A stretch of 55,725 bases of DNA, taken from contig JAFWNM010000042.1 of assembly GCA_017510335.1 (NCBI GenBank), positions 1-55,725 on the forward strand, read 5' to 3'. Of the stretch, positions 1,636 to 24,418 are shown one piece after another. Within the stretch, counting starts at the first letter, position 1; each line of letters begins with the position of its first letter. The stretch comes from Paracoccaceae bacterium. GTDB taxonomy: Bacteria; Pseudomonadota; Alphaproteobacteria; Rhodobacterales; Rhodobacteraceae. The notes under the pieces are model-generated. The model was not told the origin of the DNA. It did not search any database and worked only from the letters and a program-made list of their open reading frames with translations. The translations under genes were made by a program, and so were the position numbers.

Positions 1636-1660
1636 TTGACAAAATGTCGCAGGCTAGCGT
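1636..1660 (+). promoter_or_regulatory. coxM upstream element with motif TGACAAAATGTCGCAG
   Basis: The sequence TTGACAAAATGTCGCAG begins at 1636, about 67 bp before the coxM start. It contains the dyad GACA-AAA-TGTC. The 16-mer TGACAAAATGTCGCAG recurs exactly at 24394-24409, in front of the ECF sigma gene. TTGACA alone resembles a -35 hexamer, but there is no matching -10 at 16-18 bp. A common regulator or sigma factor acting on both sites is the simplest reading. It is an inference. Confidence 0.5.
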
Positions 1661-1703
1661 CCCGCCATGGTGGCGACAGCCGCCCCACATCTGGGAGGAA
1701 GAC

Positions 1704-2558
1704 ATGATACCAGCCGCGTTCGAGTATCACCGGCCATCGGAAATCGGTGCCGCACTTGACCTGTTGCAAACCCATGGCGACGAGGCCCGCGTTCTGGCCG
1801 GTGGCCACAGCCTGATTCCAATGATGAAGCTGCGCATGGCCGCCATCGAACACCTGATCGATCTGCGCGACATTGCCGACCTGCGCGGCATCCATATTGA
1901 CGGCACCCGCATTCGCATTGGCGCAATGGTCACACAGGCGGAACTTATCACGCATGAAGGGCTGGCCAGCGCCGCCCCCATCCTGCGCGAGGCAGCGTTG
2001 CAGATTGCCGACCCGCAAGTGCGCTATATGGGCACTGTTGGCGGGAATGTCGCCAATGGCGATCCGGGCAATGACATGCCCGGCCTGATGCAAGCCCTTG
2101 GGGCCGAATTTGATCTGGCAGGCCCGTCCGGCACACGCACAGTTGCCGCGCGGGATTTTTATGAGGCCGCGTATATGACCGCGCGCGAGGATGACGAGAT
2201 TCTGACCGCCATCCGTTTTGACGCCACAACAGGCGGCTTCGCCTATGAAAAACAGAAGCGCAAGATCGGGGATTATGCGACCGCAGCCGCCGCTGTGCTG
2301 ATCACGCGCGACGGCGACAGCGTTGCCACAGCGTCCGTGGCGATGACAAACCTTGCCGACACGCCCATCTGGTCACAAGCCGCCGCTGACGCCCTGACCG
2401 GCACGACATGCGACGCACACGCCATTCGCGCCGCAACTGACGCCGCGCTGGCCGATATTGACCCCACCGAAGACAACCGCGGCCCCGTTGAATTCAAACG
2501 CCATGTGGCGGGAATTATCATTTCACGCGCGATTGCCCGCGCCTGGTCGCGCGCCTGA
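1704..2558 (+). CDS. coxM: Aerobic carbon monoxide dehydrogenase, FAD-binding medium subunit
   Basis: The 284-residue flavoprotein subunit of the CoxLMS molybdenum hydroxylase, which passes electrons from the Fe-S subunit through FAD to the quinone pool. Both FAD pyrophosphate-binding motifs are present where expected: AGGHS at 32-36 and TVGGN at 111-115. A C-terminal CODH-type domain follows. The ATG at 1704 was chosen because GGGAGGAA lies at 1693-1700 and the product then matches the family length of about 288. The frame stays open further upstream without a good start. coxS starts 14 bp downstream, so M, S and L form one transcription unit. Confidence 0.97.
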
Positions 2559-2572
2559 AAGGAACAGCCATC

Positions 2573-3064
2573 ATGTCCAAGACAGCCATCAAACTGAACG
2601 TCAACGGCAAGACCGAGGAACTTCTGGTCGAACCGCGCGAATTGCTGATTTATGTATTGCGCGAAAAACTGAACCTGACCGGCCCGCATGTGGGCTGCGA
2701 AACCAGCCATTGCGGTGCCTGCACAGTGGAAATTGACGGCAAGTCCGTCAAATCCTGCACCATGTTCGCCGTGCAGGCCGATGGCGCGCAAATCACCACA
2801 GTCGAAGGGCTAAGCACCCCCGACAATCTGCATGTGTTGCAACGCATGTTCCGCGAACATCACGGGCTGCAATGCGGCTATTGCACACCGGGCATGATTA
2901 CCCGCGCCCACCGCCTGTTGCAGGAAAACCCCAACCCCACCGAAGCAGATGTGCGGTTCGGGATTGCGGGCAATCTGTGCCGCTGCACCGGATACCAGAA
3001 CATCGTCAAATCCATCCTTGCCGCCGCGGCAGAGATCAACGCAGCACAGGAGGCCGCAGAATGA
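2573..3064 (+). CDS. coxS: Aerobic carbon monoxide dehydrogenase, [2Fe-2S] small subunit
   Basis: A 163-residue iron-sulfur subunit that relays electrons from the Mo-Cu site in CoxL to FAD in CoxM. The plant-ferredoxin-like N-terminal domain has Cys42, Cys47, Cys50 and Cys62. The helical C-terminal domain has Cys101-x-x-Cys104 and Cys136-x-Cys138, giving the eight ligands of two [2Fe-2S] clusters. The start ATG follows aaaggaac. The stop overlaps the coxL start in an ATGA, which indicates translational coupling. Confidence 0.97.
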
Positions 3065-5478
3065 ACGACATGACCCCGGACCGCGACGACCGTATTGCCA
3101 ACCTCAAGGGGATGGGCTGCGCGCGCAAGCGCGTCGAGGATGTCCGCTTTACCCAAGGCAAGGGCAATTATGTCGATGACATCAAGCTTGCGGGCATGCT
3201 GCATGGGGACTTCGTGCGCTCCCCCTATGCGCATGCGCGGGTGAAATCCATCAACGCCGAAGCGGCCCTTGCCCTGCCCGGCGTGATTGCCGTGCTGACC
3301 GCCAAGGATCTGGAACCGCTGAACCTGCACTGGATGCCCACGCTTGCGGGCGACAAACAGATGGTTCTGGCCGATGGCAAAGTGTTGTTCCAGGGGCAGG
3401 AAGTGGCCTTCGTGGTGGCCGAGGACCGCTACATCGCCGCCGATGCCGTGGAACTGGTTGAAGTGGAATACGAGGCCCTGCCCGTTCTGACCGACCCGTT
3501 TGCCGCGCTGGAAAGTGACGTTGTCCTGCGCGAGGATCTGGCAGGACAGGACAGCGGCGCCCATGGCCCCCGCCGCCACCACAACCACATTTTCCTGTGG
3601 GAAGAAGGCGACAAGGACGCCACCGAACAAGTGCTGGACAGCGCCGAGGTGGTGGCCGAGGAAATGGTCTATTACCACCGCACCCACCCTTGCCCGCTGG
3701 AAACCTGCGGGTCCGTGGCCAGCATGGACAAGGTCAATGGCAAACTGACCCTTTGGGGCACCTTTCAGGCCCCGCATGTGGTGCGCACAGTGGCGTCGCT
3801 GCTGTCGGGGATCGAGGAACACAATATCCGCGTCGTCTCGCCCGATATTGGCGGCGGGTTTGGCAACAAGGTGGGGGTGTATCCCGGCTATGTCTGTTCC
3901 ATCGTGGCCAGCATTGTGACAGGCCGCCCCGTCAAATGGGTCGAGGACCGGATGGAAAACCTGATGGCCACCGCATTTGCGCGCGATTACTGGATGAAAG
4001 GCAAGATTGCCGCCACCAAGGACGGCAAGATCACCGGCCTGTGGTGCCATGTGACCGCAGACCACGGCGCATTTGACGCCTGCGCGGACCCGACCAAGTT
4101 TCCCGCCGGCTTCTTTCATATCTGCACGGGCAGCTATGACATTCCGGTGGCCTATGTGGGCGTTGACGGGGTCTATACCAACAAGGCACCGGGGGGCGTG
4201 GCGTATCGCTGTTCCTTCCGTGTGACCGAAGCGGCCTATTTCATCGAACGCATGATCGAAGTGCTGGCGATTGAACTGGGCATGGACGCGGCCGAACTGC
4301 GCGCCAAGAACTTCATCCGCGCGGACCAGTTTCCCTATACCTCGGCGCTGGGGTGGGAATATGACAGCGGGGATTACCACACCGCCTGGACCAAAGCACT
4401 GGACGCCGTGGACTACCCCGGTTTGCGGCGCGAACAGGCCGAACGCGTGGCGGCCTTCAATCGTGGCGAAACCCGCAAGCTGATGGGCATTGGCCTGACG
4501 CATTTCACCGAAATCGTGGGCGCAGGGCCAGTCAAGAATTGCGACATTCTGGGCATGGGCATGTTCGACAGTTGCGAAATCCGCATCCACCCCACCGGCA
4601 GCGCGATTGCCCGCCTTGGCACCATATCGCAGGGGCAGGGCCACGCCACCACCTTCGCGCAAATTCTGGCAACCGAAATCGGCATTCCCGCCGATTCCAT
4701 CACCATTGAAGAAGGCGACACCGACACGGCACCTTACGGCCTTGGCACTTACGGGTCACGCTCTACGCCCGTGGCAGGGGCCGCCACCGCCATGGCCGGG
4801 CGCAAAATCCGCGCAAAAGCGCAGATGATCGCGGCCTATCTGCTGGAAGTCCATGACAATGACGTGGAATTCGACATTGACCGTTTCGTGGTCAAGGGCG
4901 CGCCCGAACGGTTCAAAACCATGAAGGAAATTGCCTATGCGGCCTATAATCAGGCCATTCCCGGCCTTGAACCGGGGCTGGAAGCCGTAAGCTACTATGA
5001 CCCGCCCAACATGACCTATCCGTTCGGGGCCTATATCTGCGTCATGGAGGTGGATGTGGACACTGGCGAACATGAAATCCGCCAGTTCTATGCGCTGGAT
5101 GATTGCGGCACGCGCATCAACCCCATGGTCATCGAAGGGCAGGTGCATGGCGGTCTGACCGAAGCGCTGGCCATCGCAATGGGTCAGGAAATTGCCTATG
5201 ACGACATGGGCAATTGCAAGACCGGCACCTTGATGGACTTTTTCCTGCCCACCGCATGGGAAACGCCCCATTACACCACCGACCACACGGAAACCCCGTC
5301 CCCCCATCACCCGATCGGGGCCAAGGGGGTGGGCGAAAGCCCCAATGTTGGCGGTGTGCCCGCGTTTTCCAATGCTGTGCATGACGCGTTCCGCGCGTTT
5401 GGCCTGCGCCAGTCGCATATGCCCCATGACCATTGGCGCATCTGGAAAATTGCCAACCAGCTTGGCCTGCACGGCTGA
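3061..5478 (+). CDS. coxL: Aerobic carbon monoxide dehydrogenase, molybdenum-copper large subunit (form I)
   Basis: The 805-residue catalytic subunit that oxidises CO with water to CO2, two electrons and two protons. The active-site loop is AYRCSFR at 381-387, with Cys384 as the expected copper ligand. This is the form I signature; form II enzymes have a different loop. The catalytic glutamate is in GVGES (Glu759). Both residues are shifted by four relative to O. carboxidovorans Cys388 and Glu763, so the register is intact. QGQGH-type and GGGFGNK molybdopterin motifs are also present. The ATG at 3061 overlaps the coxS stop. No frameshift is seen. The enzyme should be a true CO oxidase if copper and MCD cofactor maturation work. 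Confidence 0.98.
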
Positions 5479-5523
5479 AAGGACAGGGGGCGCGCGCGCA
5501 AGTGCCGCGCCCCCGTTTGACCC

Positions 5524-6402
5524 ATGAAAAACCCTCAGAACCTGACTGACAAACTGCACGCACAGGGCTATGTCGCGCATCCTGATCTGGCCATGGCGCT
5601 GCATCTGGCGCTAACGCTGGGCCGCCCGCTTCTGCTGGAAGGGGCGGCAGGCGTGGGCAAGACCGAAATCGCGCGTGCCCTGGCCGCAATGCTGGGCACC
5701 GAATTGTTGCGCCTGCAATGCTATGAAGGGCTGGACGCCGCGCAGGCCATCTATGAATGGAACTACCAGCGGCAATTGCTGTCCATCCGCGCAGCCGTAG
5801 AAGATGGCGAATCCGCCCGTCAGGCCGAATCGCGCATTTTTTCAGAAGACTACCTGCTGGAACGCCCGCTTCTGGCGGCCATCCGGCGCGAACGGCCCCC
5901 CGTGCTGCTGATCGACGAAATCGACCGCGCAGATGAGGAATTCGAGGCCTATTTGCTGGAAGTGCTGTCGGATTTCCAGATCACCATTCCCGAATTGGGC
6001 ACCATCACCGCCACATCGCGCCCCCATGTCATTCTAACCGCCAACGGCACGCGCGATCTGTCGGACGCGCTGCGCAGGCGGTGCCTGTATGCCTATGTCG
6101 ATTATCCCGACCGCGACACCGAACTGGCCATCCTGACCACCCGCTGCCCTGAAATAGAAGCAGCCCTTGGCCGCCAGATCGTGGGGTTTGTCCAGGCCCT
6201 GCGCGCCGAGGATCTGGAAAAGAAACCCGGCATTGCCGAAATGCTGGATTTTGCTGCCGCCCTTGGCGGGCTTGGCGTCAATGATCTGGGCGCGGACCCG
6301 GCTGCATTGGCGGCGGCATTGGCCACATTGCTGAAAACCCAGTCCGACCGCGCCGCCATCCCGCCTGAAGTGGCTGCGCGCCTTGCAGGTCGGGCCGCAT
6401 GA
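5524..6402 (+). CDS. coxD: MoxR-type AAA+ ATPase, CoxD
   Basis: A 292-residue AAA+ chaperone of the MoxR family, required in O. carboxidovorans for building the [CuSMoO2] centre of CoxL. Walker A is GAAGVGKT at 40-47 and Walker B is VLLIDE at 127-132; sensor and arginine-finger regions follow. It starts 45 bp after coxL, and its stop overlaps coxE in ATGA. MoxR ATPases typically work with a VWA-domain partner, and CoxE is encoded directly downstream. Confidence 0.95.
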   Translation: MKNPQNLTDKLHAQGYVAHPDLAMALHLALTLGRPLLLEGAAGVGKTEIARALAAMLGTELLRLQCYEGLDAAQAIYEWNYQRQLLSIRAAVEDGESARQAESRIFSEDYLLERPLLAAIRRERPPVLLIDEIDRADEEFEAYLLEVLSDFQITIPELGTITATSRPHVILTANGTRDLSDALRRRCLYAYVDYPDRDTELAILTTRCPEIEAALGRQIVGFVQALRAEDLEKKPGIAEMLDFAAALGGLGVNDLGADPAALAAALATLLKTQSDRAAIPPEVAARLAGRAA

Positions 6403-7607
6403 CACGCGACCTGACCCTGAAGCGCCCGTCGCGCGCCACCCGCTTTGCCGCGCGCGACCCCGGCCCCGCCGCACGGCTGGCGGGGTTCATGGCGCATTTG
6501 CGCGGCGCGGGGTTCCATCTGGGCGTGGCGGAAACCGGCCTTGCCATGGACGCGCTGACCACGCTGGACGATATGGCCCCCGAAACCGTGTGCCGCGCGC
6601 TAAAGGCAGTCTGCGCCAGCGATGCGGACCAATTCGCGCGCTTTGACGATATGTTCAACGCCTTCTGGCTGAATAACGGGCGCGTGCGCGCGCGCCTCGC
6701 ACAATCGCGCAGCACCGGCACGGACCGCCAGCGCGCGGGCCGCACAGGCGACGGCATGGCCACAGGCACCGGCAAGGCCCACGCCCCGGATGACGGGCAC
6801 GACAGCGGCGAAAGCGAAAGTGGCGGGACGGGGCGGTTAATGGCCACAGGGGTGGCCAACCTGATGCGCCGCGACCTGCGCGAACTGGTCAGCCCAGATG
6901 ATATTCGCCACGCCGAAACCCTTGCCGCGCGGTTGGGGGCGGCCATCCGCGACCGCCGGTCCCGGCGCAGGCGCGCCGCACGACGCGGGCGCGGCGTGGA
7001 TTTGCGCCGCACGCTGCGCTCGGCCTTGTCCACAGGCGGCGAACCCTTGCACCTGCACCGCCGCACCCGCCCTGACCGGCCCGTGAAACTGGTGGTGCTA
7101 TGCGATGTGTCGGGGTCCATGCTGGCCTATACGCGCCCCTATCTGGCGTTTATCACCGGGCTTACGCGCGCGGACCCCACCGCTGACGCCTATCTGTTTC
7201 ACACGGGTCTGGTGCGCATTACCACTGCACTGCATGATGACGACCCGCTGCGCATGCTCAACCGGCTGTCGCTTCTGGCCGAAGGGGTTGGGGGCGGGTC
7301 GCGCATCGGGGCCAATCTGGACCTGTTCGCGCGCAGCTATGCGCGCCGCTTCGTCAACGGGCGCAGCGTGGTTGTCATTTTTTCCGACGGGTATGACAGC
7401 GCCAGCCCCGACCAGCTTGGCCCGGCGTTGGCGCAGTTGAAAAAGCGCGGGTGCCGTATCATCTGGCTGAATCCGCTGAAGGGGTGGCGCGACTATGCGC
7501 CAATTGCGGGCGGCATGGCCGCCGCCCTGCCCCATCTGGACCTGTTCGCCCCCGCCACCACCCTGGCCGATCTGGCCCGACTGGAACCGGAGCTTGCCCG
7601 CCTATGA
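6399..7607 (+). CDS. coxE: VWA-domain CODH maturation protein, CoxE
   Basis: A 402-residue CoxE-like protein, partner of the CoxD ATPase in maturation of the Mo-Cu cofactor. The von Willebrand A domain occupies roughly the last 170 residues. It has an intact metal-ion-dependent adhesion site, DVSGS, at 236-240, a later threonine region and FSDGYDS. The middle (about 105-200) is rich in Arg, Gly and Ser and probably flexible. Overlaps of four bases at both ends (coxD and coxF) show tight coupling. Confidence 0.94.
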   Translation: MTRDLTLKRPSRATRFAARDPGPAARLAGFMAHLRGAGFHLGVAETGLAMDALTTLDDMAPETVCRALKAVCASDADQFARFDDMFNAFWLNNGRVRARLAQSRSTGTDRQRAGRTGDGMATGTGKAHAPDDGHDSGESESGGTGRLMATGVANLMRRDLRELVSPDDIRHAETLAARLGAAIRDRRSRRRRAARRGRGVDLRRTLRSALSTGGEPLHLHRRTRPDRPVKLVVLCDVSGSMLAYTRPYLAFITGLTRADPTADAYLFHTGLVRITTALHDDDPLRMLNRLSLLAEGVGGGSRIGANLDLFARSYARRFVNGRSVVVIFSDGYDSASPDQLGPALAQLKKRGCRIIWLNPLKGWRDYAPIAGGMAAALPHLDLFAPATTLADLARLEPELARL

Positions 7608-8434
7608 CCCTGTCCGCAACTGCCCATGCCCGCCTGAACCATGAAATGGACCGCCTGCGCCGCGCAGGCCAGCCATTTGCCATTGCCACCATCGTGCGCA
7701 CGGTTGACGCCACATCTGCAAAACCGGGCGCCAAGGCGCTTATCCTTGCGGACGGCACATTGACCGAAGGCTGGGTTGGCGGGGGCTGCGCGCGCGCCGC
7801 TGTCGCCCGCGCCGCACTCGACGCGCTGCGCGAAGGCACGCCGCAATTTGTGTCGCTGCGCCCGTCCGACCTGCTGGATGCCGAAGGCGTCAGCGCAGGC
7901 GAGCACCGCGACGGCATACGCTTTGCCCGCAATGGCTGCCCATCCAAAGGTTCGATGGATATTTTCGTCGAACCTGTCCTGCCGCTGCCGCAACTGGTTA
8001 TCTGCGGGGCGGGGCCTGTGGCGCTGGCGCTGGCCGATCTGTCGGCGCGGTTCGACATGCACCGCACGCTTTGCGCGCCCGGTGCCCTGCCCGCCCCCCT
8101 GCCCGATGTCGAGGATTGCGTGGACAGTTTCGCCTTCGACACCGCGCCTGACCGCCAGCGTTTTGTCGTCATCGCCACACAGGGCAAGGGCGATGAAGCC
8201 GCCCTGCGCGCCGCGCTGGCCTGCGGGGCCGAATATGTCGCATTTGTGGGCAGCAAGCGCAAATTCGCCACATTATCCGCGTGCCTGCAGTCCGATCATG
8301 GCATTTGCGCGCAAACGCTGGCGCGCGTTCATGCGCCTGCGGGGCTTGACCTGCACGCCATAACCCCCGAAGAAATTGCCTTGTCGATCCTTGCACAAAT
8401 TGTCGCAACCCGTCGCGCAGGGCGGCGCACATGA
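7604..8434 (+). CDS. coxF: XdhC/CoxF family molybdenum-cofactor maturation protein
   Basis: A 276-residue protein of the XdhC/CoxI family, which binds and modifies molybdenum cofactor for insertion into hydroxylases such as CODH. The N-terminal domain has the GWVGGGCAR motif (about 55). The C-terminal Rossmann domain starts at VICGAGPVALALADL and ends with the ITPEEIALSILAQIVA segment typical of the family. The start overlaps the coxE stop in ATGA. The stop in turn overlaps a 31-codon reading frame. Confidence 0.93.
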   Translation: MTLSATAHARLNHEMDRLRRAGQPFAIATIVRTVDATSAKPGAKALILADGTLTEGWVGGGCARAAVARAALDALREGTPQFVSLRPSDLLDAEGVSAGEHRDGIRFARNGCPSKGSMDIFVEPVLPLPQLVICGAGPVALALADLSARFDMHRTLCAPGALPAPLPDVEDCVDSFAFDTAPDRQRFVVIATQGKGDEAALRAALACGAEYVAFVGSKRKFATLSACLQSDHGICAQTLARVHAPAGLDLHAITPEEIALSILAQIVATRRAGRRT

Positions 8435-8526
8435 CAACCCTGCGCAAGTTCCTGTCACGTTGCTGGCCACGGCTCAGCGCCGAACACGCCGAATTGCTGG
8501 CCAAGATCAAGTTTCCCTGCTGTTAA
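8431..8526 (+). CDS. Putative 31-residue protein between coxF and coxG
   Basis: A short frame begins at an ATG overlapping the coxF stop (ATGA at 8431-8434), exactly as the other cox genes overlap. The predicted product is MTTLRKFLSRCWPRL followed by SAEHAELLAKIKFPCC. The peptide is basic and amphipathic and ends in a Cys-Cys pair. Codon choice resembles the neighbours. The conserved style of coupling favours a real gene, but the length is too short to judge from coding statistics, and I do not recognise a family. Confidence 0.5.
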   Translation: MTTLRKFLSRCWPRLSAEHAELLAKIKFPCC

Positions 8527-8554
8527 AACACCCAAGAAAAGAAAGAGGCATCCC

Positions 8555-9010
8555 ATGGACCTGCAAGACGAAATCCTGATTCCCGCACCGATTGAAACAG
8601 TCTATGCGGCGCTGAATGACCCCGAAATCCTGCAAGCCAGCATTCCGGGCTGTGAAGAACTGGTCAAACATTCCGACACCGAACTGGAAGCGAAGGTCAC
8701 GCTGAAAGTCGGGCCGGTCAAGGCGCGTTTTGGCGGCAATGTCACCCTGAACCCCGAAGACCCGCCGCGCCGCTTTTCGTTGACAGGCGAAGGGTCGGGC
8801 GGGGCTGCGGGCTTCGCCAAGGGCGGCGCGACCGTGGAACTTGAAGAACAGCCCGACGGGCAAACCCTGCTGCGCTATGAAGCCCGCGCCGAAATTGGCG
8901 GCAAGCTGGCGCAGCTGGGCAGCCGGTTGATTCAGGGCACCGCCAAGAAACTGGCGACAAAATTCTTCGCTGATTTTTCCGAAGCTGTGCAGGCCCGCGA
9001 AACAAGCTGA
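8555..9010 (+). CDS. coxG: CoxG, SRPBCC-fold carbon monoxide dehydrogenase subunit G
   Basis: A 151-residue CoxG-family protein with the START/SRPBCC fold. In O. carboxidovorans CoxG helps anchor CODH to the cytoplasmic membrane. Family features visible are the N-terminal strand with IPAPIETVYAALNDPEIL, then IPGCEEL, and the C-terminal helix with GSRLIQGTAKKLATKFFADF. The longer C-terminal extension with a membrane segment seen in some CoxG proteins is absent. The gene follows the 31-codon frame by 28 bp, with an aaagaaagagg ribosome-binding stretch. A GC-rich hairpin follows the stop. Confidence 0.93.
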   Translation: MDLQDEILIPAPIETVYAALNDPEILQASIPGCEELVKHSDTELEAKVTLKVGPVKARFGGNVTLNPEDPPRRFSLTGEGSGGAAGFAKGGATVELEEQPDGQTLLRYEARAEIGGKLAQLGSRLIQGTAKKLATKFFADFSEAVQARETS

Positions 9011-9021
9011 CGCCACCCCCT

Positions 9022-9043
9022 GCGCGGCCAGAACCGGCCGCGC
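9022..9043 (+). terminator. GC-rich hairpin after coxG
   Basis: GCGCGGCC (9022-9029) pairs perfectly with GGCCGCGC (9036-9043) across a six-base loop. No strong T tract follows, so termination efficiency is uncertain. The following 250 bp up to the next gene hold no gene that I can support, only a weak dyad GATATG/CATATC near 9222-9243. Confidence 0.45.
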
Positions 9044-9300
9044 GACCTTGTCCTGTTTCAACCACATCACGCCATCTGCGAAAATGCCCGGCGCGACCAT
9101 GCGCGGGGCCAAAACGGGTTTCCATTTGGTCCGGTTTTGCGATAGCGATGATGCAACCTTGCCCTGTGCCCCGGTGAAGCGGCGTGTTTCGCATGTGACC
9201 CGCGCCGCGCTATCGCTTGTGATATGCGGCGCGTCACATATCGGGCTTTGGCTATTGGACAGGTGGACCGCACGCGCACCGCGCGCACCGTGGCCATCAG

Positions 9301-10134
9301 ATGAAAGGACATGGATTGACAGTTCCGACAATTGGCGCGGCAATGCTGCTGCACAACATGGACATTCTGCGCGACTGGCTTTTCGACATGGACCGCCCCA
9401 TCGAGATTCAGGATTTCGTCGGCCCCGATGTCATTGCAGGCGACACCACCGCCCTGGTGCAGGACTGGCAGGCAGCGCTTCGGGGCCATAAGGGTGCGCG
9501 TGGCATTCACGGGCCGTTTTTCGGGCTGGACCTGTCCAACCCCGACATGGACATGCGCGCCATCATTCAAACCCGCCTGAACAAGGGCGTGGATATTGCC
9601 CATGCGCTTGGGGGGCAGTGGATGGTTGTGCATTCGCCCTTCACCTTCTGGCACAGCCTGAATTACACGAACTACCCGTTTTTGCGCGAAAGCCTGTTTG
9701 ATGCTGTCGCGGATTGCCTTGCCCCCGTGCTGCAACGCGCGGCAAACGCGGGTGTCACACTTGTGGTCGAGAATATCGATGACACAGCCCCCGCCGACCG
9801 CAGCGATCTTGTTGCGCAGATCGACCACCCCAACCTGAAACTGTCGGTCGATACTGGCCATGCCGATCTGGCCCATGCCAATTACGGCGCGCCGCCGGTT
9901 GTTGATGTGTTGCACCATGCAGGCAACAATCTGGCCCATGTCCATTTGCAAGATGTCGACGGCCATGCCGACCGCCATTGGCACCCCGGCGACGGGCGCA
10001 TCAACTGGCGCCCGGTGATGGACCTTCTGGGCGCGCACCCCTCTGCGCCCCCGCTGTTGTTGGAAGTGCGCAACAACCAGCACCGCTTTCCGCAGACAGC
10101 GGCATTTCTGGAAGGGCTGGCCGCACGAGGGTAG
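9301..10134 (+). CDS. Sugar phosphate isomerase/epimerase-like TIM-barrel protein
   Basis: Up to 277 residues of the AP endonuclease 2 superfamily (xylose isomerase-like TIM barrel). Expected metal-binding residues are visible in VVENIDD, LSVDTGHAD, HVHLQD and LLEVR. The substrate cannot be told. The ATG at 9301 gives the longest product. A TTG at 9316, preceded by AAAGGA at a good distance, would give a product starting with TVPTIGAAM and is equally plausible. It is on the cox strand but about 290 bp past coxG and a hairpin, so membership of the cox operon is uncertain. Confidence 0.8.
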   Translation: MKGHGLTVPTIGAAMLLHNMDILRDWLFDMDRPIEIQDFVGPDVIAGDTTALVQDWQAALRGHKGARGIHGPFFGLDLSNPDMDMRAIIQTRLNKGVDIAHALGGQWMVVHSPFTFWHSLNYTNYPFLRESLFDAVADCLAPVLQRAANAGVTLVVENIDDTAPADRSDLVAQIDHPNLKLSVDTGHADLAHANYGAPPVVDVLHHAGNNLAHVHLQDVDGHADRHWHPGDGRINWRPVMDLLGAHPSAPPLLLEVRNNQHRFPQTAAFLEGLAARG

Positions 10135-10155
10135 CGACAGCAGACAACGCGCGGG

Positions 10156-10390
10156 TTTGGCCTTTTTCGGACATTCGGGGGAATGCCCAAGGTGCGGAGC
10201 AAAGGCCGCAGGCCGCCGCACCATCGGCGGGCCGTCCTGCGGCCTGCCGATTTCGCCAGTTCCACGCCAAGCCTTTGAACTCAGGAGTATGCCGCCCGAA
10301 TAAAGTGCGTCCCCTATGACGCCGGATCGGCAGACCCCGGCCCGCCGATCGCGCGGGCTTGATCCAAGCTCGAATGTCCGCTTCAGGCCA
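10156..10390. repeat. Intergenic palindromic repeat, family 1, copy A (with 98-bp insertion)
   Basis: This copy matches the element at 34841-34975 from TTTGGCCTTTTTCGGACATT onward. The internal GCAAAGGCCGCAGGCCGCC segment and the end CTCGAATGTCCGCTTCAGG are also shared. Between them, positions 10252-10349 hold 98 bp absent from the other copy. GCCGAT stands on both sides (10246-10251 and 10344-10349), as if an insertion or local duplication had occurred. It sits between two convergent genes. Confidence 0.75.
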
Positions 10391-10424
10391 AGCCCGCGCA
10401 TGGCCCACCGCGATCACATCGCTT

Positions 10425-11303: not shown

Positions 11304-11339
11304 AACGCCATGAAGCGCCTGCGGCGCGGCAGTGTCAAC

Positions 11340-12901: not shown

Positions 12902-12964
12902 CCTGCCCCCGAAGCTGTGGTCACCAGCGCGGACCACCGGGCCGCGCTGGCCATCGCGCCTTTA

Positions 12965-13972: not shown

Positions 13973-13989
13973 AGAACCCTCCTGTTGAT

Positions 13990-14008: not shown

Positions 14009-14149
14009 TGGTGTTTCACACAGTGTCATCGCGCGGCTGCAACCGCCACCGCGCACATCACCACATCGCTGCATTCTTGGGCATCTGCGGGGCGGATGCA
14101 AGAAAATTGATCACATAAAAAACAGGGGCGAATGCGCCCCCTGCCACGT

Positions 14150-15953: not shown

Positions 15954-17050
15954 GGCTTTTCCTTTCGGGCAAGGGCTTCGACCAGCGCAACCAGATGCTC
16001 GGTCGCATCTGCACGACCCGCAGACAGCGCGGCGCGCGCCATCGCATCGGCCGCTTTGGGGTTGGACAGGATGGAAATCAGGCTTTCGGTCAATGCGGCC
16101 ACATTGAATTGCGATTCAGGAAACACCACCGCGGCATCCACCCGCGACAGCATTTTGGCATTCGCCGCCTGATGGTTGCCTGTGGCCGCAGCATAAGGCA
16201 CCAGCACCGACGGGCGCCCTATGACCGAAATATCCGCGACAGACGACGCGCCCGCACGGCTGATGACAAGCTGGCATTCCGACAGGCGGCGGGGAATATC
16301 GCTGAAAAACGGCGCCACTTCGGCACGCACACCGCCAACTTCATAGGCGGCGATCACGCGCGCGATATCTTCTTCGCGGGCCTGATGGGCCACTGTCAGG
16401 TTGCGTTTCACCCCCTCTGGCAGGGCGGCAATGGCACCGGGCACCACATCCGACAGGATGCGCGCGCCTTGTGATCCGCCGATCACCAGCAGGTCCATCG
16501 GGTAATCCCCCGGCGCAATATAGCCTGCGCCCGCGCGTTCGCGCACAGCAGCGCGCACGGGGTTTCCGGTAAACACCGCATCTACCCCGTCGGCGCCCTG
16601 TATAGGCCATGTTCCGCAGGCCAGTGCAGTGACCCGCTTTGCAAAAAACGCGTTCACCTGCCCCAGAACACCGTTTTGTTCGTGGATCATGCGCGGCACA
16701 CGCAGCACCACCGCTGCCGCCAATGCCGGCACGGACGGATAGCCGCCAAACCCAACGACCACGCGCGGCCGGTCCAGCACCATGCCCGCCACCGCGCGCA
16801 ATATTCCCAACCCCAGACGCAATGGAACCAGCACTTTCGCCGCAAGTCCCCCGCGCGCGAATGTCGCGGCGCTGACCGTGTCAACCCGCACCGCCTGCGG
16901 AAACCCGCCCGCATAGCGCGCCCCGCGTGCGTCAGTGGACAGCTTCACCCGCCAGCCCCGCGCCAGCAGCGCTTCGGCCAGGGCCTGTGCAGGGAACATA
17001 TGCCCGCCGGTGCCCCCTGCGGCAATCAGAACAAGCGGTGGTTTGGCCAT
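15950..17050 (-). CDS. murG: UDP-N-acetylglucosamine--N-acetylmuramyl-(pentapeptide) pyrophosphoryl-undecaprenol GlcNAc transferase
   Basis: A 366-residue peripheral membrane glycosyltransferase making lipid II from lipid I. Diagnostic loops are [10 protein letters not shown] near the N-terminus and GGSQGA in the C-terminal donor domain, followed by SRAGASS. The start [17 protein letters not shown] (17050) was preferred over a longer frame because it gives the canonical N-terminus one base after the ftsW stop. Confidence 0.97.
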
Positions 17051-17051
17051 A

Positions 17052-18230
17052 TCAGCCCCCTGACCCCAGACCACGACGCGACAGGATTTCGCCAATCTCG
17101 CCCTGCGGTCTGGTGCGTGTGAATGCCAGCAGCATACCAATTGCCATGCCTGTCGCAAGCAGGGACGACCCGCCATAGGACACGAACGGCAAAGTCATGC
17201 CTTTGGACGGCAGCAGGCGCACGGCAACGCCCATATTGATCATGGCCTGAATGGAAAATACCGCGACAATGCCCGTCCCCGCCAGACGGATGAACACATC
17301 GCGTTCGCGCATCAGTCGAAACAGCGACCGCAGCAGGATCATGGCGTATAGCCCGATGATAAACAAAACCAGAATGAACCCGTATTCTTCGGCGGCCACG
17401 GCGATGATGAAATCTGTATGCGCATCCGGCAAGGACCATTTCACGCGCCCTTCGCCCACACCGGCCCCGAAAAACCCGCCTTCCGATATGGCGTTTTGCG
17501 CATAGCCCATCTGGGTGCGCGGGTCCACATCAGGGGCCAGAAACCCGTCAATACGGCGGGCGAAATGTTCGGATGAATTATAGGCCGCCCAGCCCCCGGC
17601 AACCACCAGCCCCGCAAACCCCACCAACAGCGCCATTGGCGCACCGGCCACGAAATACATGATCATCCAGCCTGCAGCAATCAGCGCGGCCTGTCCGAAA
17701 TCCGGCTGAAGCGCCAGCATCGCCACCACCAGCAGCGTAAACCCGAAGGACAGTGCGCGCCCCGGCGGCCCGTTCAGGTCTTGCGATGACGCCATAAGCC
17801 ATGCGGCAAACACGGCCAGCATGGGTTTCAAAAACTCGGACGGTTGGAACGACCCGAACCCAAGGCTGAACCAGCGCGTGGCCCCCTTGCCGAAATCCGT
17901 GCCGAAAAAGGGCAGCAGCATCAGTGCCAGCAAACTGGCGAAAAACCCCACCACAGCGAAACGGCGTATGCGTTCGGGCGAACACATGGACAGGCCCAGC
18001 ATGGCCACCAGCCCCAGAACGCCGAAAAACACCTGTCGCTGGACATAGTAGAACGGCGCCAAGCCGTTGCGCGTGGCCAGTGGTGGCGATGCCGCAAGCC
18101 CCAGAAGCAGCCCCACCGCCATCAGCAACAGAACCCCTGTCAGGGTCATCTTGTCGATTGTGCGCCACCAGCGTGGAAGGATAGGGTCCACCACGCGCAT
18201 GGGCGCGGTGCCATAAACCATTTCTGTCAT
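17052..18230 (-). CDS. ftsW: Septal peptidoglycan glycosyltransferase FtsW (SEDS family)
   Basis: A 392-residue integral membrane protein with about ten helices, the SEDS polymerase of the divisome. The conserved C-terminal part has [26 protein letters not shown], the family signature; the loop [26 protein letters not shown] lies before it. The first 25 residues are cytoplasmic. No mur gene lies upstream in the window; 222 bp separate it from a divergent P-loop gene, and I see no clear promoter there. Confidence 0.96.
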
Positions 18231-18452
18231 GCGACTGCCTCGATAGAACCGCTGATTTGCCTGTTTGCGCCCGATTTTCCGGGTCTGTGTCCAAGTCTAA
18301 CCCGAACGTGTGGTTCAATCCAGCACAAACACGCGCCACCGCGTCACAGCCGCGTGCGTGAATCGGGCGCGAACCGGCCCTGAACGGCAACTAATGCTTG
18401 AACGCAGGACCACACAGGCCCACAAAGGCGCAGGGATTGAAAGCAAGTTTTT

Positions 18453-19226
18453 ATGCAGATCAGAAGGCATATTCAGGACATATGGCTGCAGGTGTTTCCG
18501 CCGCCGCCCTTCGATATGCGCGATGATTTGCCCGTGCTGCCCCTGCCGCGAGGCGGGCCGGCGCAAACCAGGGCCGCGCTGGATGCCTATGTGCAAGTTC
18601 TGCTGGCCGATATTGCTGCCTATGCCCCTGCCCCTGTGCCCTCGCTGATTGTCACAGGCGCCATGCGCTGCGGCAAGACGCTGGTGGCGCGCAGGGTCGC
18701 GCGGCGCAACGGGCTGTATCATGTGCCCGGCGACAGGCTGCGCAAGGCGACCTTCCGAAACTGTGACCAGGCCACGAAACTGCGCATCCTCAAGTATATC
18801 TGCAAACGCCTGCTTCTGGCCCATCCGACAGGGTTGGTGCTGGACAGCACCATCTTTCTGGACCGCGGCGTGACGTTGCCGCATTGGGCCAGCAAGCGCG
18901 GCATGCACTGCGTGGCCATCGGCTATTCCCAGGATGACCCCGCGCGCAAGGCCCAAAGCATGATCGCCTTTCGCAAAACTGCCAAATGCTGGACATCACG
19001 CAGCAAATCAGATGCGGATATGCACAAACTTGCGCGCCAGATCATCTTTCGCAGCAAGGAAATCAAGGCCCTGTGCGCCACACAGGGCTGGCCCTATTTC
19101 GATCTGGAAGCAGATGCGTTCAGCCGCGAAAAGCGCCGGGTCGTCTATGCCATCGAAACGCTTTTGCACCGTGAACAGACTGCCCCGCAAGGACGCGGGG
19201 CAGCGCGCGACAAACCGGCCCTATAG
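18453..19226 (+). CDS. P-loop protein of unknown function
   Basis: A 257-residue protein with a Walker A motif GAMRCGKT near residues 70-77, followed by LVARRVARRNGLYHVPGDRLRK, which resembles small nucleotide or sugar kinases. A later VLDSTIFLDRG segment could be Walker B-like. The C-terminal half is Lys/Arg-rich. I do not recognise the family. Its stop codon lies inside the palindrome CTATAG at 19221-19226, which also holds the stop of the convergent beta-helix gene. Proximity suggests, but does not prove, a shared role in surface polysaccharide. Confidence 0.75.
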   Translation: MQIRRHIQDIWLQVFPPPPFDMRDDLPVLPLPRGGPAQTRAALDAYVQVLLADIAAYAPAPVPSLIVTGAMRCGKTLVARRVARRNGLYHVPGDRLRKATFRNCDQATKLRILKYICKRLLLAHPTGLVLDSTIFLDRGVTLPHWASKRGMHCVAIGYSQDDPARKAQSMIAFRKTAKCWTSRSKSDADMHKLARQIIFRSKEIKALCATQGWPYFDLEADAFSREKRRVVYAIETLLHREQTAPQGRGAARDKPAL

Positions 19227-21509
19227 CGGGCGGTCCACACGCATGGTCACAATCGCGCGCCCGCGTGTGGCCACCGGCCAGCGCAACCGCGCCTGATTGC
19301 TGTCCGGCCCCTGATTGACCTGCACATAGGGCGCATCATAGCGGATTGCGTCACTGCCATCGCGCGCGGCATCTTCCATGACCACCGATGTCACTGTGCG
19401 CACACGGCCCCCGAAGGGCATTTTATCCCCTGAAGTGATGGTCCATGTCGTGGCTTCGGTGTTTTGTTCATGAATAATGACAGCCGGGCTTTCGGTCGGG
19501 AAATCCACACCATTATAACTGTTGTCCTGAAACAGCACATTGCGGAAACGGTTGTATTCGAGGCCCGCAAAGGTGGTGTCCACGGCCTCGACCCGGTTGA
19601 TGGCATTGCCCGACAGGCGGAAGACATTGCCCTGCACCACCAGTCCCTGAATGAAATGCCCCGCGCCATAAGGTTTGAACACGATATAGCGGAACCATGG
19701 CGCCACGCTGATGGCAAAGAAAATATTGCCCGTCACCGTCAGCCCCCCGAAAGAAAAGCCGCTGCCGTGGTCGGGGTAGGCGTCATGTTCATTGGTCATT
19801 TCAATGAAACAATTATCGATGTAATTGCCTGTCACGGTGGTTTTGACATTGCCCGCGCTTAGCACAAGCCCCGCTTGCCTTATGCCCGCCGCAGTGGTGT
19901 CGCCCTGGAAAAAATGGTTGCCGCTGACAATATGACCGCTGCCCGCCATCACCCCGAAATGCGCCCATAACACCACGCGGTTGTTGCGGATCTTGGCGTC
20001 GTTGTTGTTGACATTGAACGCGATGACTGTGCGATCCTGGGAATTGAGGGGCATTTGCGAACTGCTGAACTGGCAATTGTCGATCATCAACCCCTGACAG
20101 GCCACCCCGATGGATGTGATGGCCCTGTCGCGCGGGCGGTTGAAATCGCATTGATGGAAGCGGAAGATACGCCCCCCTTCGGCCAGCATGACCGCAGATG
20201 CGCGGCCCCGGCAAATGAATTCCAGATTGTGGAATTCAAAGTTGCGCAGGCTGGAAAAGCCCGAAAAATCCAGCCCGTAGCGGTAGCGCTCGAAGGTGAA
20301 TTCCTGCGTCATGGCCCCGCCATGCAGCGGCAGGCTTAGCGTCAGGGTGCCCGCCGCCACATTGCGCGACCGCACATAGACTTCGCGCCCCACGCCCACA
20401 CCACTGACGCGCGCGCCGACCGGAATGGCCGCCACATTGCTGATACCGCCCAGCAAAAGCGGGCTGGCAGGGGAATAGGTGGCAACAGCCGTTGTCGTTT
20501 CGGTGGCCCATGCGGGGTTGTCGATAAAATCCAGCTGGCCATCCGCCAGCACCCTGCGCCGGGATGTATCGTCATAGCCCGCCAGCGCGAACACATCGAC
20601 AGGGCCGGTAAGCGGCACGCGCCGCCCCTTCAGGTTGAATTCCATATGTTCATTGCTGTGAAACAGCGCCTGCAGCCCTTTGCGAAAGCCCGCCTCGGCA
20701 CTGCCGAAGGCCGCTTCATAGCCGGTCAGGTCGAAATTCTGCTGCAAGATCAGGACGGTCTGGGGGTCCATGGCCAGCGTGCCACGAAACACCGCCTGCA
20801 TGGGGATGGTCAGGTCATCGCCAATGGCAAACACGCCATCAGGCACCAGCAGGCTGCGCCCGTTTGCCGCCGCCATTGCCGCCAGAAAGGCCGCGCGATC
20901 ATCACTGACCCCATCGCCCTGCGCGCCGAAATCGCGCACATCGACAAGGCCCAGCAAGTCGCGGGTATACAGGGCCGAGATATCCTCGATGATCAGGTCG
21001 TCAATGCGCACCACGCCGCCTGTGGGGCCGGTCAGGTCCAGCCCCAGATGCGCGATGTTGACCGAAAGCGGCCAGACCATATCGACCGACGGGCGCGCGC
21101 CGGTGCCGATGATGGCCTGCACCTCCACAACCTGGCCAAAGCTGGTCAGGGTGGTTTGCGCCCCTGTGGTGGTCAGGCCGGTAATTTCGGTGCCGCCACT
21201 GTCCCCTGCCCAGGCCGCGATGCGCACATTCGGCATGACACCGGCCATTGCCTTGATGCGGGCGCGCACGCGCAGGTAACTGCCCGGCAGGACGGGCACT
21301 TCGCCCATCCAGCGCAGGCGCGTGGTGGCGCTTATTTTCTGCACTTCCAGCGCACCGCCAAAATCAGGGTCGGCGGGCACAAAGGCCGCGAAGACCGCCG
21401 CGTCATAGGTGGGCGTTCCGGGGCGGCCGGTGGTTTGTGACCACTGGTCCAGACCTGCCGAAAACGGCGGGGGCGTGATTGCCTGCGGGTTGGTAACGGC
21501 CAGGTTCAT
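19221..21509 (-). CDS. Right-handed parallel beta-helix protein, pectate-lyase/tail-spike-like
   Basis: A 762-residue protein. An N-terminal domain of about 180 residues (jelly-roll-like, FSAGLDQWSQTTGRPGTPTYD) precedes the pectate lyase superfamily signature DVRDFGAQGDGVSDDRAAFLAAM. Next come many short repeating beta-helix rungs rich in Asn, such as GLMIDNCQFSSS and VTGNYIDNCFIEM. Family members bind or cleave polysaccharide. No signal peptide is seen. The ATG at 21509 follows AAGGG at a good distance; longer in-frame starts have none. It may be an exopolysaccharide-modifying enzyme or a phage or GTA tail-fibre relative. Confidence 0.85.
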   Translation of the reverse strand: MNLAVTNPQAITPPPFSAGLDQWSQTTGRPGTPTYDAAVFAAFVPADPDFGGALEVQKISATTRLRWMGEVPVLPGSYLRVRARIKAMAGVMPNVRIAAWAGDSGGTEITGLTTTGAQTTLTSFGQVVEVQAIIGTGARPSVDMVWPLSVNIAHLGLDLTGPTGGVVRIDDLIIEDISALYTRDLLGLVDVRDFGAQGDGVSDDRAAFLAAMAAANGRSLLVPDGVFAIGDDLTIPMQAVFRGTLAMDPQTVLILQQNFDLTGYEAAFGSAEAGFRKGLQALFHSNEHMEFNLKGRRVPLTGPVDVFALAGYDDTSRRRVLADGQLDFIDNPAWATETTTAVATYSPASPLLLGGISNVAAIPVGARVSGVGVGREVYVRSRNVAAGTLTLSLPLHGGAMTQEFTFERYRYGLDFSGFSSLRNFEFHNLEFICRGRASAVMLAEGGRIFRFHQCDFNRPRDRAITSIGVACQGLMIDNCQFSSSQMPLNSQDRTVIAFNVNNNDAKIRNNRVVLWAHFGVMAGSGHIVSGNHFFQGDTTAAGIRQAGLVLSAGNVKTTVTGNYIDNCFIEMTNEHDAYPDHGSGFSFGGLTVTGNIFFAISVAPWFRYIVFKPYGAGHFIQGLVVQGNVFRLSGNAINRVEAVDTTFAGLEYNRFRNVLFQDNSYNGVDFPTESPAVIIHEQNTEATTWTITSGDKMPFGGRVRTVTSVVMEDAARDGSDAIRYDAPYVQVNQGPDSNQARLRWPVATRGRAIVTMRVDRPL

Positions 21510-21662
21510 GAAAGACCCTTTCTTGTCAGTCGATGTGCTGCAATCGGATGACAGGTCAGGGCGTTTGCCTGCCTGACCGATCATCCGGACAGCGCAGACT
21601 TTACCAAACATGCGTTAAACCCCGCTAAGGGCAGCGTGCGCTGCACTGACGAGGGGGCGGGG

Positions 21663-21750
21663 ACGGGGGGACATTCGGGAAAATCCCCCAGTGCGGACTC
21701 AAGGCCGAAGGCCGCCGCACACTCGGCGGGCCCTCCCGCAGCCAGCCGAT
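21663..21750. repeat. Intergenic repeat, family 1, copy C (diverged)
   Basis: A degenerate copy that keeps GGACATTCGGG, then CCCAGTGCGGACTCAAGGCC, GAAGGCCGCCGCAC, CTCGGCGGGCC and GCCGAT in the same order as the copies near 10.2 and 34.9 kb. The right-hand end present in the other copies is not recognisable. It lies upstream of the beta-helix gene and downstream of the DUF4864 gene. Confidence 0.6.
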
Positions 21751-21787
21751 GACCCACGCGCAGCTCAAGCCTACGCAACCACGCGCA

Positions 21788-22189
21788 TCAAACCCCTGTT
21801 TCAGGCGCCCTTAGCAACTGCACCCCATTGATTTGCCAGCCATCACCCGCCGGCACCATCTGGTAGGCCAGAAAATGCAACCGCCCCTGTGCATCGCGGA
21901 TCATGACGCGCTGAACAACACCCGAAGGGGTTTGCGACTGCTCCAGCATGGTGACATCTGAGGGGCGATACACCATCGGATACCCATCCTGGACCATCGC
22001 GCCAAAGCGGTCGGGCGTTCCGAACAGGCGTTTTATATCAGGGCTGGCATAGCTGAAGGCGCGGTCAAAATCATCGGCCTGAAGCGCTGCAATCTGGTCT
22101 TCGATAATCCGGCTTATGCCGGCGCTGTCTTGTGCCGGGGCAAGGGTCGCTGCCAGCATCAGACCCAAAGCTGCAATCATGGTGCGCAT
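21788..22189 (-). CDS. DUF4864 family exported protein
   Basis: A 133-residue protein with a Sec signal peptide (MIAALGLMLAATLAPAQ) and a single small alpha+beta domain of the NTF2-like kind known as DUF4864, starting IIEDQIAALQADDFDRAFSYASP. Function is unknown in the family. It is probably periplasmic. It lies 59 bp downstream of the lysK stop on the same strand. Confidence 0.82.
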   Translation of the reverse strand: MRTMIAALGLMLAATLAPAQDSAGISRIIEDQIAALQADDFDRAFSYASPDIKRLFGTPDRFGAMVQDGYPMVYRPSDVTMLEQSQTPSGVVQRVMIRDAQGRLHFLAYQMVPAGDGWQINGVQLLRAPETGV

Positions 22190-22248
22190 GGTGTCCCCCT
22201 TTCACGCAAGGATACCATCCTTACGCAAAAGGGGTGCGCGCAGATCAC

Positions 22249-23832
22249 TCAGGCCAGATCACCCGCCAAGGCGCGGTCAATCAGCGCAACTGTTTCATCC
22301 ACGCCATACAGCGCAATGAACCCACCAAAACGCGGTCCCTGGGACTGGCCCAGCAACACTTCATACAGGGCCTTGAACCAGTCGCGCAGGTTTTCAAACC
22401 CGTGATCCTTGCCCACAGCGAACGCCAGCGTCTGCAATTCCTCGGCGTCCAGCCCGCCTTGCCAGTCGCGCAACCGTGCGGCCAGATCTTCCATTGCCGT
22501 GCGTTCCATATCGCCGGGCGCGCGGAACTGGCGCGCAGGGGCCACAAAATCACGGAAATAGGCCAGCGCGAACCCTGCCGCCTGATCCAGATCGGGGTGG
22601 GTTTCGGGGGCTGCGTCCGGCGCATAGCGGCGGATAAAGCCCCAAAGCCCCTCTTTGCCCGTGGACCCTGCAACAGATGCCAGGTTCAGCAACATCGCAA
22701 AACTGACCACCATATTCGACACAGGCGGCGTGCCCCCGTGAATATGCCACACAGGGTTGGCCACTTGCTGTTCCAGCGTCTGGTCAGGAAAGGCACGCAA
22801 CTGCTGATGATATTCATCCACCGCCTTCGGGATCACATCCCAGGACAGGCGCTTGGCGGTGCGCGGCTTCAGGAACATGTAATACGACAGCGATTCCGTG
22901 CTGGCATAGGTCAGCCATTCATCAATCGTCAGGCCATTGCCCTTGGATTTGCTGATCTTCTCGCCATTCTCGTCCAGAAACAACTCATAGACATAATGCT
23001 CTGGCTTTTGGCCCCCCAGAATTTCGCAAATGCGGTCATAGATGGGGGTGTTGGTCGAATGGTCCTTGCCATACATTTCGAAATCGACATCCAGCGCCGC
23101 CCAGCGCGCGCCGAAATCGGGCTTCCATTGCAGTTTCACATTGCCGCCCGTAACCGGCAGCGTCCATTCGCGCCCGTCTTCATCCTCAAATGTGATAGTG
23201 CCATTCTTGCCGTCGACATGCTTCATGGGCACATACAAAACGCGGCCCGTTTCGGGGTGGATGGGCAGGAAAATGGAATAGGTCTGCTGGCGTTCATCGC
23301 GCAGGCTTTTGAGCATGACCGCCATGATGTCGTCATAGCGTTCAGCGGCACGCAACAGCACTGCATCGAACTGGCCGGATTTATAGAATTCTGTCGCGCT
23401 GATGAATTCATACTCAAACCCGAACGTGTCCAGAAACCGGCGCAGCATGGCATTGTTATGATGGCCGAAACTCTCATATTTGCCGAACGGGTCGGGCACC
23501 GATGTCAGCGGCCGTTGCAAATGCTCGCGCAGCGCCACCGGGTCGGGCACATTCTCGGGCACTTTGCGCATGCCGTCCACATCATCGGAAAAACAGATCA
23601 GCCGCGTGGGCACATCACAAATCGCCTCGAACGCGCGCCGGACCATGGTGGTGCGGGCCACTTCGCCAAAGGTGCCGATATGCGGCAGGCCGGACGGGCC
23701 ATAGCCCGTCTCGAACAGCACATAGCCCTTCTGCGGCGCCTTGCCCTTGATGCGCGCGACCAGTTTGCGGGCCTCCTCAAAGGGCCAGGCTTTGGATGTC
23801 AGGGCAGCATCGCGCAGTGCAGACATGGGCAC
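22249..23832 (-). CDS. lysK: Lysine--tRNA ligase, class I
   Basis: A 527-residue class I lysyl-tRNA synthetase, the archaeal-type enzyme also used by alphaproteobacteria. It has the HIGH-like motif [10 protein letters not shown] near the N-terminus and KISKSKGNG as the KMSKS loop. The GTG at 23832 is five to six bases after AAGGAAG; an ATG at 23826 is the alternative. No class II lysyl-tRNA synthetase is seen in the window, so this is probably the housekeeping enzyme. Confidence 0.96.
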
Positions 23833-23935
23833 ATCACTTCCTTGTGGGGGGACAATAACACCCCCACTCCCTATTGCTCCTTGGCGGCCACGTCAATATT
23901 CTGCGCCCGAAACAGGTATCCCGAAGGACCGCATC

Positions 23936-24358
23936 ATGCAGCCTCTGCCCCAACCCCTGTCCCCGCAGGATTGTCTGGTCGCCCTGATGATCGCCGTCTC
24001 GGCGGCCGATCAGGAAATCCGCACGGCCGAACTGGTGGCCATACAGGCGCTGGTGAACCATCTGCCCATCTTCGCGGAATATGACGCAGACCGCATCAAA
24101 ACCATTGCCCAGACCGTGTTTGACCTGCTGGAAGAAGAAGACGGGCTGGACGCGCTGTTTGGGCTGGTGCGCGAAAACCTGCCCGACAAACTGAATGAAA
24201 CGGCCTATACCATCGCCTGCGATGTGGCCGCCTCTGATGGCAAGCTGTCGCAGGCCGAATTGCGCCTGCTGGAAGAAATCCGCCATGAATTGCAGATCGA
24301 CCGCCTGCATGCTGCCGCCATCGAACGCGGCGCGCGCGCGCGCCACATGCGGCTCTAA
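23936..24358 (+). CDS. TerB-like (tellurite-resistance B domain) protein
   Basis: A 140-residue all-helical protein of the TerB-like superfamily. It has the typical acidic repeats SAADQEIRTAEL and AASDGKLSQAELRLLEEI, which in TerB bind divalent metal. It is cytoplasmic with no signal peptide. The ATG at 23936 follows gaagga. There are no other ter genes, so a tellurite role is not implied. It ends 36 bp before the promoter motif of the ECF sigma gene. Confidence 0.8.
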   Translation: MQPLPQPLSPQDCLVALMIAVSAADQEIRTAELVAIQALVNHLPIFAEYDADRIKTIAQTVFDLLEEEDGLDALFGLVRENLPDKLNETAYTIACDVAASDGKLSQAELRLLEEIRHELQIDRLHAAAIERGARARHMRL

Positions 24359-24393
24359 GGCAGGCAGGCCCGCATTTCGCACCAGAAACAGGC

Positions 24394-24418
24394 TGACAAA
24401 ATGTCGCAGCCACGCTAC
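24394..24418 (+). promoter_or_regulatory. ECF sigma upstream element with motif TGACAAAATGTCGCAG
   Basis: TGACAAAATGTCGCAG at 24394-24409 is identical to 1637-1652 upstream of coxM, and lies 52 bp before the sigma factor start. A similar short GC-rich block containing GCTA or GCGT follows at the same distance in both places. It could be the autoregulated promoter of the sigma factor or an operator for a shared transcription factor. Confidence 0.5.

Follow-up and report, generated by a model that had tools for sequence, protein, structure and literature searches.

Three described systems resemble parts of the DNA analyzed here, a 55,725-nt stretch from a Paracoccaceae bacterium (contig JAFWNM010000042.1; hereafter the window). 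In it, one 16-bp element, TGACAAAATGTCGCAG, stands before both coxM, a carbon monoxide (CO) dehydrogenase gene, and the gene of an extracytoplasmic function (ECF) sigma factor. In Afipia carboxidovorans, the repressor CoxC acts on the cox genes via three direct repeats until CO releases it; the operator consensus is given as TTNNNGCN for CoxC and as TTCNNGCA, with 12-13 bp spacers, for RcoM1 (PMC11347149). The Sinorhizobium meliloti sigma factor RpoE4 responds to sulfite-generating compounds and controls only its own operon and the sorT operon (PMC3511301). Finally, the response regulator RegA activates as well as represses in R. capsulatus (PMC5359404), and in At. ferrooxidans it binds genes for the oxidation of inorganic donors, iron and sulfur (PMC5506826).

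We propose that RegA (PrrA/RegR/ActR), a global redox response regulator, uses the 16-mer as its operator at two promoters separated by 22.7 kb. The 16-mer is best read as a RegA/PrrA-type box. This kind of element is known, whereas the two candidate targets are new, and we put the probability that RegA is its binder at roughly 0.6. A sequence-only reading of the window had taken the shared element to suggest that one regulator or sigma factor governs both CO and sulfite oxidation. The element is a real, partly conserved regulatory site. A private link between CO and sulfite is not supported, and a shared redox layer is possible. A literature search that covered few subscription journals listed no report of the cox genes or an RpoE4-like sulfite module as RegA targets, and none in which RegA controls CO and sulfite oxidation together.

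Two copies of a 16-bp element

The two copies are as follows.

1637..1652, + strand: candidate RegA-type box before coxM, TGACAAAATGTCGCAG; rank 1 of 111,422 positions with the RegA matrix
24394..24409, + strand: candidate RegA-type box before the ECF sigma gene, TGACAAAATGTCGCAG; rank 2 with the same matrix

The last base lies 51 bp before the start codon of coxM and 36 bp before that of the ECF sigma gene. The sequence-only reading had coordinates, strand, and distances right (67 and 52 bp, counted from the first base), as well as the dyad GACA-AAA-TGTC in both copies and the GCTA block that follows each (1653-1656 and 24414-24417). It had noticed no third copy, and a search of the whole assembly (3,614,859 bases, or 3.61 Mb, in 43 contigs, the window being contig C41) bore this out by finding exactly two copies, both in the window. 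With up to three mismatches, the assembly has 45 sites, including the two exact ones, versus 25 when the pattern is reversed. Of 149 family genomes drawn for comparison, four, this one included, have the 16-mer; the other three have a single copy each, and the reversed control has none. A search of a plasmid collection gave no match.

That an intergenic match of 16 bp is unlikely by chance had been put too strongly for 16-bp matches in general, because random order-3 Markov windows contained a mean of 7.45 repeated 16-mers (40 simulations). For a pair with both copies intergenic the statement stands: such a pair arose in 1 of 60 simulations and exceeds chance. The intergenic space (7,419 bases) came from a crude codon-usage gene finder, and the same script underlies the other gene calls and intergenic classes below. 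The window has four other shared stretches with both copies intergenic, all inside a longer repeat near 10.16-10.39 and 34.84-34.98 kb.

Resemblance to RegA sites and distribution in the genus

We built a matrix from 33 R. capsulatus RegA sites mapped by chromatin immunoprecipitation sequencing (ChIP-seq; table in PMC5359404) and scored 111,422 window positions on both strands. The cox box ranked first and the ECF box second. ChIP-seq peak 27, CGGACAAAATGTCGC (PMC5359404), has a stretch of 13 bases, GACAAAATGTCGC, in common with the box, and peaks 17 (CTGCCAAAATGTCGC) and 29 (GTGACAATTTGTCCC, cydA) are also close to it. Because peak 27 nearly equals the box itself, peaks 27 and 17 were removed from the matrix, after which the boxes ranked 6 (cox) and 15 (ECF). 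They ranked 13 and 28 with peak 29 removed too. The genome also encodes a RegB-type kinase (520 bits; cut-off, 350), whose gene adjoins regA and a senC-like gene (senC was named by eye). The Fis-like DNA-binding domain of this RegA aligns near-identically, almost residue for residue, to PrrA (1UMQ). The likeness to the RegB/RegA (PrrB/PrrA, RegS/RegR) systems thus extends over the site sequence, the regB-regA cluster, and the DNA-binding domain. The difference from a described RegA regulon is that binding at the cox and ECF boxes is predicted here from sequence.

The dyad was then followed through 38 genomes of the genus as the looser pattern TGACANNNTGTCGCA. It occurs at 80 sites, versus 12 for the reversed control, which is too lenient: with arm spacings of 1 to 9 bp there were 290 matches, 210 of them in the eight spacings other than 3 (mean, 26 each), versus 65 reversed matches in all nine. 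Spacing 3, with its 80 matches, is still about threefold above the neighboring spacings; among 150 matches listed, it accounts for 35, and the other spacings for 8 to 22. By the crude gene finder, 63 of the 80 sites are intergenic and 17 coding. The dyad center is AT-rich in the intergenic sites (GC content of 0.41, versus 0.75 in the coding ones).

The intergenic sites recur before genes for a DUF2189 membrane protein (8 sites), groES with CIRCE (6), an amine-oxidase-like protein (5), a succinate-CoA ligase-like protein (4), a MaoC-like protein (4), the ECF sigma factor (4), a CBS protein (3), sulfite oxidase (3), what is presumably panC (3), amtB (3), coxM (3), and a protein that we take to be CcoG-like, for which Pfam gives only a 4Fe-4S domain (2), plus others. 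A cytochrome c gene is in the set as well. In this tally both neighbors of divergent pairs were counted, and names come in part from Pfam. The set is broad, and the box is not private to CO and sulfite. A dedicated CO-sulfite switch is not supported in view of this spread and of genome G180, which has the box before its ECF gene and no true coxM. The sequence-only reading had itself named a motif common in unrelated intergenic regions as evidence against its proposal; across the genus this is largely the case, although this assembly has only two exact and five looser sites.

The same counts bear on whether the shared part is a mere housekeeping -35 element (TTGACA or CTGACA) with a match extended by chance. 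TGACA does lie at -35 spacing from a TAnCyT sequence before the ECF gene in four genomes. However, the base before TGACA is T in only 24 of the 63 intergenic genus sites, TANNNT follows at 17 bp spacing in 4 of the 63, and the right arm is commonest at one spacing; these three counts disfavor a plain -35 element. Nor is there a -10-like hexamer 17 bp downstream at coxM, where a promoter scan for a -10 came back empty. We consider this explanation improbable.

The leniency of the reversed control weighs against RegA as the binder, and so do several other results. Symmetric matrices, in which every site scores on both strands, rank the cox and ECF boxes lower: 3 and 17 with all 33 sites, 15 and 33 without peaks 27 and 17, and 35 and 61 without peak 29 too. 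With the reduced matrix, several other window positions equal the scores of the boxes. The published RegA string is matched at 13 or 14 of 15 positions, but likewise at thousands of window positions. The exact 13-mer GACAAAATGTCGC showed no clear enrichment in the 149 family genomes (17 occurrences, 14 without this genome, versus 10 reversed). No strong RegA site was found between regB and the senC-like gene (best score, 7.5). A PrrA ChIP-seq study in R. sphaeroides gave no strong consensus, and the At. ferrooxidans RegA sites lie mostly upstream of the -35 element, unlike the boxes here (PMC5506826). Another dyad-binding protein could bind the box.

Such a protein might be a different global regulator of the genus, with GACA-N3-TGTCGCA as its site and a resemblance to RegA sites that arose by convergence. 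The genus set includes housekeeping promoters (groES with CIRCE, amtB, the succinate-CoA ligase-like gene, and the presumed panC), which are not known as typical RegA targets. The site is also asymmetric, with a longer right arm, and stricter than published RegA motifs. Set against this are the 13-base identity to a ChIP-mapped R. capsulatus RegA site and the redox genes in the set, such as those for cytochrome c and the presumed CcoG-like protein. On this evidence we regard a different regulator as unlikely, though a serious contender, and retain RegA as the probable binder.

The reverse complement of the box, CTGCGACATTTTGTCA, resembles the RegR box string GNGRCRTTNNGNCGC printed in PMC5506826. 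Strings of this kind fit too many positions to discriminate, and published consensus strings by themselves were therefore rejected as a test.

The cox and ECF sigma promoters

The features of the cox locus are the following.

373..1482, + strand: coxC-like gene, MHYT-LytTR regulator (Pfam MHYT, 1.4e-32; LytTR, 8.4e-18)
1555..1603, + strand: three TTNNNGC direct repeats, CoxC/RcoM-type operator-like (at 1555, 1576, and 1596; steps of 21 and 20 bp)
1609..1623, + strand: CCGCGAAACTGGCGC, a second possible RegA-like site of the cox promoter (ninth of all window positions, reduced RegA matrix)
1704..2558, + strand: coxM, CO dehydrogenase FAD subunit (Pfam FAD_binding_5 and CO_deh_flav_C)
2872..5478, start probably at 3061, + strand: coxL, CO dehydrogenase large subunit (TIGR02416, 1391 bits; cut-off, 991)

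As in A. carboxidovorans, an MHYT-LytTR protein is encoded next to the cox genes, and TTNNNGC is repeated three times in steps of 20-21 bp. The locus differs in that the Afipia operator overlaps the coxB -35 element, whereas here the repeats are upstream of the box, some 100-150 bp from coxM. The cox genes have their own CoxC-like regulator and operator-like repeats, to which CoxC is predicted to bind, and so CO-specific control appears to be provided for already. By eye, TTCGTGC-like repeats precede many coxM genes of the family. A CoxC half-site shared with the ECF promoter (GCATTTCG at 1592 and 24372) was considered and dropped, since the ECF orthologues at 83% identity do not keep it.

True coxM orthologues (at least 71% identity) occur in 5 of the 38 genus genomes, this one included, and three of the five have the box at the same place: this one, G182 (exact; center AAA), and G177 (one change in the dyad center, to AAT). 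In these three the whole leader is conserved up to the start codon, a footprint that is not specific to the box. At the second possible RegA-like cox site, CGCGAARCTGGCGC is also present in G177 and G182. There is no box at that place in G184 and G160, whose best matrix sites upstream of coxM lie further upstream (p values of 0.024 and 0.058). Over 33 coxM upstream regions of the genus and family, the best matrix site had a p value of <0.05 in eight, at scattered positions; the family scan left out L243, whose upstream stretch is coding, and 5 of the 35 family genomes with coxM fell outside it for want of a locus.

The ECF box is found in four genomes. The ECF orthologues at 83% (G177 and G182) and 70% (G180) identity have the boxes TGACAAACTGTCGCAGCC and TGACAACTTGTCGCAGCC, with TAnCyT at -10 spacing after the box in all three. 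TGACAA..TGTCGCAGCC is kept in the four, and the dyad center varies (AAC in G182 and G177). A search for the motif before coxM and ECF orthologues, as the sequence-only reading had proposed, recovered it in some genomes at each gene (three at coxM and four at the ECF gene); the exact identity between the cox and ECF copies is not itself conserved. G180 has the ECF box without a true coxM (its best match has 30% identity). The ECF box is therefore probably older than the cox box and independent of it. By eye, distant ECF orthologues mostly share another upstream pattern, CTTGAT-N17-GCAGSATG or close to it (L200, L201, L203-L205, L207, L209-L211, and L214).

The ECF module comprises the following features.

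23936..24358, + strand: TerB-domain protein upstream of the ECF gene (Pfam TerB, 2.4e-08, on a longer frame, 23741-24358)
24416..24421, + strand: possible -10 element TACCCT, 17 bp after the CTGACA of the box (TAnCyT, equal spacing in G177, G182, and G180); not reported by the promoter scan
24446..24985, + strand: ECF sigma factor, RpoE4-like by gene order and promoter (Sigma70_r2 and Sigma70_r4_2; TIGR02937 sigma70-ECF over cut-off)
24990..25739, + strand: probable anti-sigma factor with one hydrophobic segment, by position and by eye; no Pfam family over cut-off
25924..25950, + strand: probable ECF promoter, GGAATA-N16-CGTCT; single match in the assembly and the window
26012..27319, + strand: periplasmic sulfite dehydrogenase, SorA/SorT kin (Oxidored_molyb, 3.7e-50; Mo-co_dimer; SorA/SorT models below cut-off)

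By gene order and promoter, the module matches the known RpoE4-EcfR4/SorT arrangement of S. meliloti (ECF26): sigma factor, probable anti-sigma factor, and sulfite dehydrogenase in this order, with GGAAT..CGTCT before the dehydrogenase. In the sorT promoter of S. meliloti, GGGAAT and CGTCT are spaced almost alike (PMC6180224). The difference is that the ECF gene here lacks such a promoter of its own and has the RegA-type box instead. GGAATA-N16-CGTCT precedes the dehydrogenase in all 17 congeneric orthologues (13 exact and 4 with one mismatch). These 17 are the dehydrogenase genes beside an ECF orthologue, from 16 genomes (G164 has two); the genus has 19 ECF matches, of which L212 and L213 (40% and 35% identity), with no dehydrogenase match, are outside the 17. 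The count of the pattern over the genus is not enriched (84, versus 106 reversed). The evidence for this promoter is its place before 17 of 17 dehydrogenases, which fits a sigma factor with one target.

These results also speak to the idea that the 16-mer is recognized by the ECF sigma factor itself, which would then transcribe cox as well as its own gene. The element does precede both genes on the coding strand, with GCTA after it. However, the promoter found before all 17 dehydrogenases is a different one, of sorT-like type, and a search of the window with exact patterns found no GGAATA-N16-CGTCT before coxM or the ECF gene. The gap between box and GCTA is unequal (0 bp at cox and 4 bp at the ECF gene). 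The dyad also occurs elsewhere in genomes such as G149, which lack an ECF match at an E value of 1e-20. This idea is very improbable. Shared control by the ECF sigma factor was rejected, since a search with exact patterns found its likely promoter once in the assembly, before the sulfite dehydrogenase. What survives of the proposal of one regulator for both promoters is that a single DNA-binding protein is plausible, the element behaving like a real regulatory site; that this protein is the ECF sigma factor is not supported.

We also scored the 17 dehydrogenase upstream regions with the RegA matrix. The best site had a p value of <0.05 in six; the dyad lies behind the ECF-type promoter in G167, G184, G166, G163, and G183 and just upstream of it in G180. 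G170 and G172 were near the threshold (p values of 0.066 and 0.069), and G157, G161, G164a, and G181 had no significant site before the dehydrogenase. With the looser pattern, the dyad stands behind the ECF-type promoter in 9 of the 17, G169 and G164b being further ones; in the matrix test some start codons were taken too early, so that the G164b dyad fell outside. G000, G177, and G182 have no dyad before the dehydrogenase and have the box before the ECF gene instead, and G180 has both.

A possible redox layer

In this scheme a Fis-like RegA dimer would occupy the dyad GACA-N3-TGTCGC. The box includes the -35-like CTGACA at the ECF gene; at coxM it directly precedes GCTAGCG, with the CoxC operator-like repeats on its upstream side and the start codon downstream. 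Because the boxes sit over -35-like and leader sequences, repression is suggested as the sign of RegA action, with less confidence than we give to binding. Phosphorylated RegA, the form produced at a reduced quinone pool, would restrain additional electron-donor pathways. The specific inducers would act via their own regulators, CO through CoxC and sulfite through the ECF/anti-sigma pair, and RegA would form a second, general layer above these two. Binding, repression, and physiological role are all inferred from the DNA. A full redox veto, in which both pathways are shut at a reduced quinone pool and the sulfite-side veto point has shifted within the genus between the ECF and sulfite oxidase promoters, is a tentative and rather doubtful extension.

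If this is true, the RegA regulon of this Rhodobacteraceae group, whose nearest named relatives are Roseinatronobacter and Natronohydrobacter, gains aerobic CO oxidation and the RpoE4-like sulfite response as candidate members. TGACANNNTGTCGCA would then define more sharply, and in a form suited to searches, a motif left blurred by ChIP-seq in R. sphaeroides. One shared 16-mer should not be taken for a private circuit.

Some further occurrences were seen. In L128, from another genus, the exact 16-mer lies at 1500-1515, which is 101 bp upstream of the gene for a hydrogenase maturation protease; hydrogenase genes count among the classical targets of RegA. In L125, from another genus too, GCGACATTTTGTC at about 1501 is followed by CTAGCGT, as at cox here, and then by a gene that may be DmdA-like. 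In six genomes (loci L245, L247, L282, L292, L293, and L297), TGACANNNTGTCGCA occupies a -35-like position some 82 bp upstream of groES, directly before what is presumably a CIRCE-like element.

Apart from these sites, the window contains a palindrome-rich repeat in two intergenic copies (10156-10390 and 34841-34976), identical over several stretches. The copy near 34.9 kb has an inner inverted part at about 34899-34941.

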